Source of the DNA: Pseudomonas sp. MUP55
Lineage (GTDB): Bacteria; Pseudomonadota; Gammaproteobacteria; Pseudomonadales; Pseudomonadaceae
Assembly: GCF_034043515.1 (NCBI RefSeq)
Contig: NZ_CP138214.1
Span: forward strand, 4,154,001-4,218,000
Direction: 5' to 3'
Length of the DNA: 64,000 nucleotides
Shown: positions 43,486 to 46,583 of the stretch, in pieces
Layout: every line of letters begins with the position of its first letter
Numbering within the stretch: position 1 is the first letter of the stretch
Position numbers and translations under genes: made by a program
Notes under the pieces: generated by a model
Told to the model about the DNA's origin: nothing
The model's input: only the letters and a program-made list of their open reading frames with translations
Database searches by the model: none

Positions 43486-44386
43486 AAAATTGCGCCCCCG
43501 CGCACAGGATCAGCAGCCACAGCCAGACGCCGCGTTGCACCAGTTGCCAGCCTCGGTCGATGGCGTCAGCGTCGGCCGGCGGACCTTCGCCCAGCTGTGG
43601 ACGCTGGTGCAGCTCGCCGTGATAAATCGCCGCGCCGCCCAGTTCGACGCCCAACGCACCGGCGCCAGCGGCCATTACCGGGCCAGCGTTGGGGCTGTCC
43701 CAGGTCGGGCCCTGGCTGCGCCAGCATTTGAGCGCCAGGCGCGTCTTGCCCAGCAATGCGTAGGTCAAGGCCACCAGGCGTGCAGGAATATAGTTGAGCC
43801 CATCGTCGATCTTCGCCGCCGCCCAGCCGAAGCGTTCAAAGCGCTCGTTGCGATAGCCCCACATGGCGTCAAGGGTGTTGCTCAGGCGATAGAGCACCAC
43901 CCCCGGCACGCCAGCGACCACGAACCAGAACAACGCGGCGAACACAGCGTCGCTGCCGTTTTCCAGCACCGACTCGGTGGCAGCGCGGGCGACTTCGGTG
44001 CGGTCCAGCTCGCTTGTCTGGCGGCTGACCAGATAACTCACGCGTTTGCGCGCTTCGTCCAGGTCATCACTGCGCAAGGCCTGGGCGACCGGAATCACAT
44101 GCTCTCCCAGGCTGCGCATGCCCAGCGCGCAGTACAACGCCAGGATCTCCAGCACCCAGCCGATGTAAGGGGCCCAGGACAATGCAGTCGCCAGCAGGGT
44201 CAGCGGCACCACCGCGATAAACCACGCGGTCACGCCATGGCTGCGCCAGCCACGGCCTCCGGTATTGAAACGTTGCTCGATGCGCCCGGCAAAATTGCCG
44301 AACGCCACCAGCGGATGCCAGCGCCTGGGTTCGCCCAGCAGCGCATCCAGCGCGACTGCGGCGACACACAGCAAGGCCACACTCAT
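43478..44386 (-). CDS. cbiB: Adenosylcobinamide-phosphate synthase
   Basis: A 302-residue inner-membrane protein (CbiB, called CobD in the aerobic naming) with the signature [17 protein letters not shown] and several hydrophobic helices. It attaches aminopropanol phosphate to cobyric acid. The start at 44386 overlaps the bluB stop (ATGA); a five-codon upstream extension is therefore not used. Confidence 0.95.
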
Positions 44387-45033
44387 TGACTCACTCCCCA
44401 CAGGTTTTCATACAACATGTCACTCAATGGCCGAGGCTCGGTCCAGCCTTCGAGCTGCAACATCGGTGCCGGATAGAACTCGGCGACCGGCCCCAGGCAC
44501 AGCACCGCCAGCGGTTTGGCACCCGCCGGCAAACCCAGCAGGTCGGCCAGGGCCTGGGGTTCGAACAGCGAAACCCAGCCCATGCCCAACCCCTCGACGC
44601 GGGCCGCCAGCCACAGGTTCTGAATCGCGCAGGACAAGGAAGCCATGTCCATTTCCGGCAACGTACGACGGCCGAAAATATGCCGCTCGCGATCATCCAT
44701 CAGGGCTGCTACCAGTACTTCGGCGCAGTCGTGGATGCCTTCGACCTTGAGCTTCATGAATTCATCGGAGCGTTCGCCCAGGGCTTGGGCGGTGCGTATG
44801 CGCTCTTGCTCCACCAGCTGTTGAATCCGGCCCCGTAACTGACGGTCACTGATGCGGATAAAGCGCCACGGTTGCATCAAGCCGACACTGGGCGCCTGGT
44901 GGGCGGCCTGGAGCAGACGCTGCAGCAATGCAGGCGCGACGGTGCCGCCGCTGAAGTGGCGCATGTCGCGGCGTTCGGCGATGGCGCGGTAGACGGCCTG
45001 GCGGTCGGCTTCGGGGAAGGCGTTGTCGGTCAT
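44383..45033 (-). CDS. bluB: 5,6-dimethylbenzimidazole synthase
   Basis: A 216-residue nitroreductase-fold flavoenzyme that breaks down reduced FMN to DMB, the lower ligand of B12. Motifs: [38 protein letters not shown]. Its ATG overlaps the stop of the extended cobB (ATGA), so cobB-bluB coupling survives despite a REP array in the cobB 3' end. Confidence 0.95.
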
Positions 45034-46583
45034 GGCGTCATCGGGGGCAAGCCCCCTCCCACATTGGATTGGGTTTCAACGCCGTCAATTGTGGGAGGAG
45101 GCTTGCCCCCTTCCACATTGGATTGGGTTTCAACGCCGTCAATTGTGGGAGGAGACTTGCCCCCTTCCACATTGGATTGGGTTTCAACGCCGTCAATTGT
45201 GGGAGGAGACTTGCCCCCTTCCACATTGGATTGGGTTTCAACGCCGTCAATTGTGGGAGGGGGCTTGCCCCCGATAGCGGTGTCGGGGCCCGGCGCAAAC
45301 AGCGCGGCCACCGCTGTCGGATTGGACGGAAAGTAAAAGTGCACGTAGGAAGCGGTCATTCGCCCTTGTCGATAAACCGCCTCTGCGCCGCGTCCGCCAT
45401 TGGGGCTCAGGCCACGGGCGATCGGCTGGCATTCGGTGCTGGTGAGGGAATGGTGGTAGGTGTGGCCACGCAATGTGCCTTCCGGCAACTCGACGCTTTG
45501 CAGCGCCAGCGCCGCCAGTTTCTTTTGCATCACCGCATCGCCCTGCAAAAGGCCCAGCAGTTCGGCGCGGTTGCCGTCGACGTCGGTGAGCGAGTCAAGC
45601 AGGTACAGCATGCCGCCGCATTCGGCGAGCAAGGGCTTGCCGGCCGCATGATGAGCGCGGATGGCATCAAGCATCGGTGTGTTTGCCGACAGGGCCTGGT
45701 GATGCAGCTCCGGGTAACCGCCAGGTAGATACAGGCTATCGGCTTCAGGCAATGCGCCGTCATGGATCGGCGAAAAGAAACTCAACTCGGCGCCCATCGC
45801 CCGCAGCAGGTCCAGACTGGCGCCGTAGGTAAACGCGAAGGCCTCGTCACGGGCCACAGCAATGCGTACCCCGGTGAGCAGCGGCTCGGCGGCGATCACC
45901 TGCGGCGCGGCGAAGGTCACCGGCGGCGGCAGGGCGACTTCGCAACTGCTGCCCAACGCCTGAGCGGCAGCGTCCAGGCGCATGTCGAGGTCATTGAGTT
46001 CGCTGGCCTGCACCAGGCCCAAGTGACGGCTGGGCAATTCGATGCCGGTTTCACGCGAAAGCGCGCCGTACCAGCGCAACCCTTCGGTCAGGCTGCCTTC
46101 CAGCAACTGCGCATGGCGCAAGGTGCCGACACGATTGGCGAGCACGCCGGCAAATGGCAGGTCCGGCTGGTAGCGCGCCAGCCCCAGCGCGAGCGCGCCA
46201 AAGGTTTGCGCCATGGCCGTGCCGTCGATCACCCCCAGCACCGGCACACCGAAGTGCCGTGCCAGGTCGGCGCTGGACGGCGTGCCGTCGAACAGGCCCA
46301 TCACGCCCTCGATCAGGATCAGGTCGGCCTCCCCCGCCGCTTCCCACAACAGACGTCGACTTTCCTGCTCGCCGACCATCCACATGTCCAATTGATACAC
46401 CGGCGCGCCGCTGGCGCGTTCGTGAATCATCGGGTCGAGGAAGTCCGGCCCGCATTTGAATACGCGCACCTTGCGCCCCAGGTTGCGGTGCAGGCGCGCC
46501 AACGCAGCGGTGACGGTGGTTTTGCCTTGGCCGGACGCCGGTGCGGCGATCAATACGGCCGGGCAATGACGGGGCTGATTCAA
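45030..46583 (-). CDS. cobB: Cobyrinate a,c-diamide synthase with REP-derived C-terminal extension
   Basis: A 517-residue protein. N-terminal ATPase (AAPASGQGKTTVTAALARLH) and C-terminal glutaminase domain with Cys in LLAECGGMLYLLDSL. Normal sequence ends near residue 435 (YVHFYFPSNPTAVAALFAPGP), the usual family length. The last 82 residues are translated REP sequence: four copies of an 18-residue unit GGKSPPTIDGVETQSNVE, then GGGLPPMTP. The 54-bp period keeps the frame, and the stop still overlaps the bluB start. The tail is predicted to be disordered and acidic. The enzyme amidates cobyrinate at a and c and is probably active, as the tail follows the complete domains. Confidence 0.93.
   Translation of the reverse strand: MNQPRHCPAVLIAAPASGQGKTTVTAALARLHRNLGRKVRVFKCGPDFLDPMIHERASGAPVYQLDMWMVGEQESRRLLWEAAGEADLILIEGVMGLFDGTPSSADLARHFGVPVLGVIDGTAMAQTFGALALGLARYQPDLPFAGVLANRVGTLRHAQLLEGSLTEGLRWYGALSRETGIELPSRHLGLVQASELNDLDMRLDAAAQALGSSCEVALPPPVTFAAPQVIAAEPLLTGVRIAVARDEAFAFTYGASLDLLRAMGAELSFFSPIHDGALPEADSLYLPGGYPELHHQALSANTPMLDAIRAHHAAGKPLLAECGGMLYLLDSLTDVDGNRAELLGLLQGDAVMQKKLAALALQSVELPEGTLRGHTYHHSLTSTECQPIARGLSPNGGRGAEAVYRQGRMTASYVHFYFPSNPTAVAALFAPGPDTAIGGKPPPTIDGVETQSNVEGGKSPPTIDGVETQSNVEGGKSPPTIDGVETQSNVEGGKPPPTIDGVETQSNVGGGLPPMTP
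45038..45282. repeat. REP element with internal 54-bp tandem array, inside cobB
   Basis: The outer ends are inverse REPs (CATCGGGGGCAAGCCCCCTC at 45038 and GAGGGGGCTTGCCCCCGAT near 45256-45274). Between them a 54-bp unit is tandemly repeated about four times (starts at 45059, 45113, 45167, 45221). Each unit holds CCACATTGGATTGGGTTTCA, then ACGCCGTCAATTGTGGGAGG and a REP arm. Copies differ at only one or two bases, which suggests recent expansion. Confidence 0.93.

Follow-up and report, generated by a model that had tools for sequence, protein, structure and literature searches.

In-frame REP tails at the cobB/bluB junction of Pseudomonas species and a fourfold array in one genome

REP sequences in genes and the cobB/bluB junction

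REP-decorated genes, REPs at the ends of ORFs, tandem REP arrays, and palindromic insertions that preserve a reading frame are already known. By the definition given in PMC2817692, a REP combines a GT(A/G)G head with a GC-rich imperfect palindrome behind it. Intragenic REPs are described as exceptions to the usual extragenic placement in the sections of PMC3733652 on decorated ORFs, where REPs lie inside or at the end of ORFs and REP clusters encode 43-82 aa in Thauera and R. conorii. For strain SBW25, PMC3116915 counts 1,067 occurrences of the commonest 16-mers, 14 of which overlap genes, and describes evenly spaced tandem REPs in the arrays GI-GIII. Rickettsia palindromic elements (RPE), as outlined in PMC10969869, are palindromic insertions that lie in frame within genes.

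A 64,000-nt stretch of the genome of Pseudomonas sp. MUP55 (the window) contains a REP-derived element at the 3' end of cobB that resembles each of these systems in part. It shares REP sequence, abundance and inverted pairing with the SBW25 Pflu1 REP/REPIN family as tabulated in PMC2817692, but differs from the P. fluorescens family in that the heads of its pair point inward, the minority orientation in a 464-kb sample of this genome, and in its position inside a reading frame. Like the ORFs of PMC3733652 it is REP-decorated; however, in that part of the paper one site is shared by two species (recB, in two Xanthomonas), whereas the cobB site is occupied in dozens of them, its frame constraint has been tested, and stop and start overlap. 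RPE, in the account of PMC10969869, are different elements found in many unrelated genes, while the cobB REP concerns one operon junction with little constraint on the peptide. Finally, the arrays described in PMC3116915 have spacings of 112 and 72 bp, in contrast to the 54-bp unit inside a reading frame seen here. No report of a REP tail at cobB/bluB, or of clade-wide conservation of the frame alone, was found in the literature searched, which comprised open PMC papers. What appears to be new is that dozens of species keep one REP site in frame and preserve the overlap, together with an in-frame fourfold expansion.

The most probable explanation, to which we assign a probability of about 0.7, is that an ancestral REP doublet has been kept in frame by the coupling of cobB to bluB, that its peptide is a tolerated by-product, and that its interior was duplicated fourfold in the MUP55 lineage. 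With dozens of species, a changing mobile insert and one stop-start overlap, the junction offers a natural experiment in which selection on frame can be told apart from selection on peptide. How much termination-reinitiation coupling matters in a native operon can be tested directly at this site, which also indicates that non-coding repeats can be drawn into genes without forming a domain.

Anatomy and origin of the fourfold array

The cobB ORF of the window is joined to its neighbors on both sides by overlapping start and stop codons (Table 1). On the upstream side, the TTG start of cobB shares bases with the stop of a gene that we take to be cobO, and bluB overlaps in turn a following gene that is presumably cbiB-like. 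The cobB-bluB pair itself shows the 4-nt stop-start overlap of translationally coupled pairs. The first-pass annotation had let the normal CobB sequence end around residue 435 and continue into a repeat tail. The tail beyond the core is confirmed, but the core ends earlier, near aa 431: P431 is the last invariant column in an alignment of 28 homologues, and the Pfam GATase_3 match already stops at aa 421, which leaves the tail outside Pfam domains. Past P431 follow 86 residues, among them four 18-residue units (aa 438-509) that read GGKPPPTIDGVETQSNVE, then twice GGKSPPTIDGVETQSNVE, then GGKPPPTIDGVETQSNVG. No solved structures were matched.

Table 1. Coordinates of the cobB-bluB junction in the window.
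Feature	Position	Strand	Basis
cobB ORF, 517 aa	45030..46583	-	
cobB TTG start overlapping stop of upstream gene (TTGA)	46580..46583		
cobB conserved core (cobyrinate a,c-diamide synthase), aa 1-431	45291..46583	-	ORF, Pfam, alignment; product name from homologues
CobB in-frame REP-derived tail, aa 432-517 and stop	45030..45290	-	ORF and repeat units; relatives
Left REP arm (cobB orientation), exact type C REP	45253..45273	-	Exact arm match
54-bp unit 1, aa 438-455	45219..45272	-	
54-bp unit 2, aa 456-473	45165..45218	-	
54-bp unit 3, aa 474-491	45111..45164	-	
54-bp unit 4, aa 492-509	45057..45110	-	
Right REP arm (cobB orientation), exact type C REP	45042..45062	-	Exact arm match
ATGA, cobB stop overlapping bluB start	45030..45033	-	Overlap read in sequence
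bluB, 216 aa, Pfam Nitroreductase	44383..45033	-	Name bluB from the first-pass annotation
bluB overlapping next gene (ATGA)	44383..44386		

Tandem repeat analysis (TRF) delimits the array at 45051-45272, with a period of 54, 4.1 copies, 97% matches and a score of 416; the rest of the window yields one row, a 21-bp match with 2.3 copies and a score of 61. The array begins and ends in exact REP arms whose GTGG heads point inward. Their sequence, GTGGGAGGGGGCTTGCCCCCGAT, is the Pflu1 type of SBW25 as listed in Table 1 of PMC2817692, and both arms show the head and palindrome of a REP. The 20-mer occurs in 796 exact copies in the source genome, a high copy number as expected of a REP. Together with the exact arms at both ends, this shows that the array is not a product of chance. 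Unlike the extragenic REPs of the definition, the arms lie inside the cobB frame. They form an inverted pair as in REPINs, but most doublets sampled in this genome have outward heads about 66 bp apart, whereas the cobB pair is directed inward with a spacing of 211, or 49 once three extra units are subtracted. A 464-kb sample of the source genome (20 stretches plus the window) contains 139 REPs, among which 47 pairs are outward at 65-78 and 13 inward, the cobB pair included. Four further outward pairs at 5 bp look like a single palindrome found on both strands.

REP DNA lies in frame at the 3' end of cobB, with exact arms and an ORF that spans all four 54-bp units. Both the TRF period and the unit anatomy give a unit length divisible by three, as the first-pass annotation had proposed. 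Its description of the element as a REP tandem repeat holds for the four units; the element as a whole is best read, from its sequence, as an inverted REP doublet with a duplicated interior. Between the left and the right arm, both included, copies of the word GGGGGC follow one another at intervals of exactly 54 bp. Its spacing between the two arms of an ordinary doublet equals the unit length, and the arm spacing of 211 equals 49 + 3 x 54, where 49 is the arm spacing of the single doublet in a near relative (L002). These steps and this arithmetic point to a duplication between short identical words of both arms. The doublet interior would have been turned into four units by slippage or unequal crossing over at the GGGGGC words common to the arms. 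The unit is longer than the arm spacing by 5, so that a spacing which the frame had fixed beforehand gives a unit divisible by three.

An assembly artefact as the source of the four units is extremely unlikely. The fourfold tail was seen in the source genome and in none of the other junctions and genomes examined, as an artefact would be. However, the source genome is a single contig of 5.95 Mb, and the units differ among themselves at a few bases, the inner ones carrying substitutions of their own, which speaks against a simple assembly error. Each species is represented by one genome in the collections. A search of 194 genomes with the array region matched 82, with a whole-length match in the window's own genome alone, and no CobB of the fourfold-tail length occurs among the 120 proteins listed (a set clustered at 90%, with five sequences read), the two longer ones being CobB-BluB fusions. 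No second array with this unit was seen in the genome among the 40 of 85 candidates scored, the best other match reaching 79% over about 57 bases. A 72% match to the array region lies away from cobB at G004:C22:497620-497834 and is perhaps another REP array.

Frame and peptide in related species

CobB was found in 198 of 199 genomes. From the best 150 places listed, 149 loci (30 + 119) were examined, G038 being left out for a match near a contig end, and the best 80 named loci were added. Of these 229 loci, 23 had no adjoining bluB or could not be placed, and the 206 usable ones comprise 198 distinct junctions. At a cut-off of at most 5 mismatches in 21, REP arms are present at 88 of them, in 85 translated and in three within untranslated spacers; the same cut-off was passed by 0 of 1000 pieces of the cobB core and by 5 of 1000 shuffled tails (0.5%). 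Both arms are recognized in 54 junctions, the right arm alone in 29 and the left alone in five. The claimed preservation of the bluB overlap extends to the relatives, where the cobB stop overlaps the bluB ATG by 4 nt in 81 of the 88 REP-bearing junctions. Of the 88, 83 have a tail length of 2 mod 3, and the shortest and longest in-frame REP tails measure 35 and 260 bp. In 68 of the 110 junctions without REP arms, the core ends straight in the overlap.

A doublet or single arm at this junction in dozens of other species shows that the insertion is not strain-specific. In a tree of 171 rows, based on the cobB 3' part and bluB with the tail excluded (27 of the 198 rows were dropped for identity under 80% or short parts), one clade of 90 species holds 77 of the 83 translated tails represented; the remaining two of the 85, L161 and L193, were among the dropped rows. 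This clade includes P. simiae and others, and we take it to be the P. fluorescens group. Thirteen of its 90 species, nested within it, have no recognizable REP tail and still an overlapping stop. Degenerate REP tails with 3-5 mismatches occur in another part of the tree (L200, L201, L204, L205, L206 and L216). An inward-headed doublet with a short loop probably landed at the cobB end in the ancestor of this one Pseudomonas clade, in a phase that would have let the ribosome reach a stop overlapping the bluB start. Later, arms and loop would have been altered, and the doublet shortened or lost in some lineages, length changes surviving almost exclusively as stop-free multiples of three. Many inner branches of the tree are weak (66 of 168 starred, 53 open), and repeated insertion could account for some of the 16 transitions between tail, no tail and spacer.

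Several variants were seen in passing. In four members of the clade (L043, L180, L187 and L197) cobB runs straight into the overlap; it looks as though the tail was cut out cleanly or the gene replaced. One arm is 15 bp longer, always in frame, in L003, L004, L011, L012, L013, L162, L176 and L181; the addition encodes SNRRT/PNRRT in the left or VRRFD in the right arm and looks like one REP variant placed in either arm.

A comparison of cobB 3' ends, as the first-pass annotation had advised, shows that tail lengths do differ: by parsimony, the 83 tails require at least 38 length changes, and 2 changes of length mod 3. With the parsimony counts taken as events, P is 2e-15 against an in-frame expectation of one-third. 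Of 23 nearest pairs that are unequal in tail length, 21 show a difference divisible by three (P 1e-8). That a neutral insertion without selection for coupling stayed in frame by chance, through the low stop content of REPs and shared ancestry, is very improbable in light of these tests and of frame openness, the cobB frame being open in 80 of the 83 tails and the other two in 33 and 15. This alternative would fit with the tails being common to related species with the uncoupled state of some lineages and with doublet spacings of 1 mod 3 being common in two of the three genomes sampled. The spacing of doublets is the weaker control. Spacing is 1 mod 3 in 51 of 54 cobB doublets (51 of 52 with inward heads); in 1.2 Mb of three genomes, 56 inward doublets lie away from cobB, and 22 of them have this phase. 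The corresponding Fisher value of 2.5e-10 is not a true probability, because the cobB doublets share ancestry. Moreover, two of the three genomes sampled lean to 1 mod 3 themselves (G000 5/8 and G098 13/23, next to 4/25 in G100), which further weakens the control.

The peptide shows little of this constraint. In 31 pairs of cobB tails of equal length, all in frame and with limits of 0.2 on gene distance and 40% on tail difference, substitutions at codon positions 1/2/3 number 160/167/199 of 956/956/925 sites in the tail and 355/134/1375 in the core. The small third-position excess in the tail (P 0.035) leaves room for weak constraint on the peptide, as judged from codon positions. By the same sequence comparisons, the reading frame is strongly constrained and the peptide little. 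Such a pattern, with the frame held and the peptide mostly not, fits selection for translation up to the bluB start and not a new domain. The first-pass annotation had seen in the tail a variable protein domain; a functional C-terminal domain of CobB recruited from mobile DNA and tuned by repeat number is very unlikely, and was rejected as the main explanation on the codon-position pattern. The third-position excess, the overlap kept in 81 of 88 junctions and the existence of REP-decorated proteins (in the examples of PMC3733652) would be compatible with a domain. Against it stand the nearly flat codon positions next to a strongly biased core, the variation of the tails in length, the tail-free species nested in the clade and the position of the tail outside Pfam domains.

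Proposed coupling to bluB and the host REP pool

The most likely reason for a constraint on frame is that bluB is translated by termination-reinitiation of ribosomes leaving cobB, so that the stop would have to stay at the start codon. In the E. coli gene pairs of the reinitiation experiments in PMC10666635, moving the stop 38 nt upstream reduced reinitiation by 80-90% or abolished it. A distance effect of this kind, if reinitiation needs the cobB stop on the bluB ATG, would explain a constraint that concerns the frame alone. Translating ribosomes would also open the REP hairpin, and the tail peptide would be a tolerated by-product. The bluB starts behind coupled REP tails show little Shine-Dalgarno pairing, with a median duplex energy of -2.1 kcal/mol and 1% at -6 or stronger (n=80); tail-free coupled starts show more Shine-Dalgarno pairing (median -4.95, n=54). 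Stronger Shine-Dalgarno sequences at uncoupled junctions were not found in a comparison of 10 uncoupled with 80 coupled REP-tailed junctions (P 0.58).

Coupling can be dispensed with. In L153 and L164 an in-frame stop lies in the loop, 48 nt before bluB, the REP tail of L174 is frameshifted, and in L222, L225 and L227 cobB stops right after the core and the REP DNA lies in an untranslated spacer. These last three loci belong to a neighboring clade and have spacers of about 170-240 nt, and the heads point outward in L222 and L227. In L179, the last of the seven REP-bearing junctions without the 4-nt overlap, the stop is 4 nt further on and an overlap with bluB is still present.

Alternatively, the frame might be kept since a frameshifted cobB runs into bluB or leaves an untranslated hairpin, with harm to the operon. 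The RNA of the array is indeed predicted, in a folding run with no shuffle control, to form a long hairpin, and two proteins (P0004 and P0005) read as CobB-BluB fusions. However, both fusions are single-member records that may be errors, and a stop within the element, which leaves the right arm untranslated, is tolerated in L153, L164 and L174, so that we regard this explanation as rather unlikely. In one of the two fusions the halves are linked by REP-like sequence read in another frame; the other apparently arose from a deletion.

The type of the arms was compared with the REPs of the host in 70 genomes with REP tails, excluding named-only records, spacer cases and degenerate tails. All 11 type C tails occur in genomes with 49-1063 type C copies, next to 0-45 copies in the 59 genomes with other tails, the type C genomes being partly related to each other. 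Type A versus B arms follow the host genome weakly, and the tail type is the commonest of the three searched patterns in 43 of the 70 genomes. On a tentative extension of the preferred reading, which we consider possible but doubtful, the letters of the tail would be set by the host REP pool through conversion of the arms, while the only rule imposed by the host is the frame. The element would then be a tamed translated spacer that couples cobB to bluB and whose duplication is automatically in frame.

A second ORF that ends in a translated REP arm, VGGGLPPIAEGQQLIGA, was noticed at about 3.58 Mb of the source genome (L273:1899-3338, minus strand, 479 aa). It is presumably monooxygenase-like and shares 8 nt with the ORF listed next. 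A codon-composition filter passed 15 of the 51 REP-holding ORFs in the 464-kb sample, and among these 15 it is the only other case of a C-terminal REP recognized by eye.
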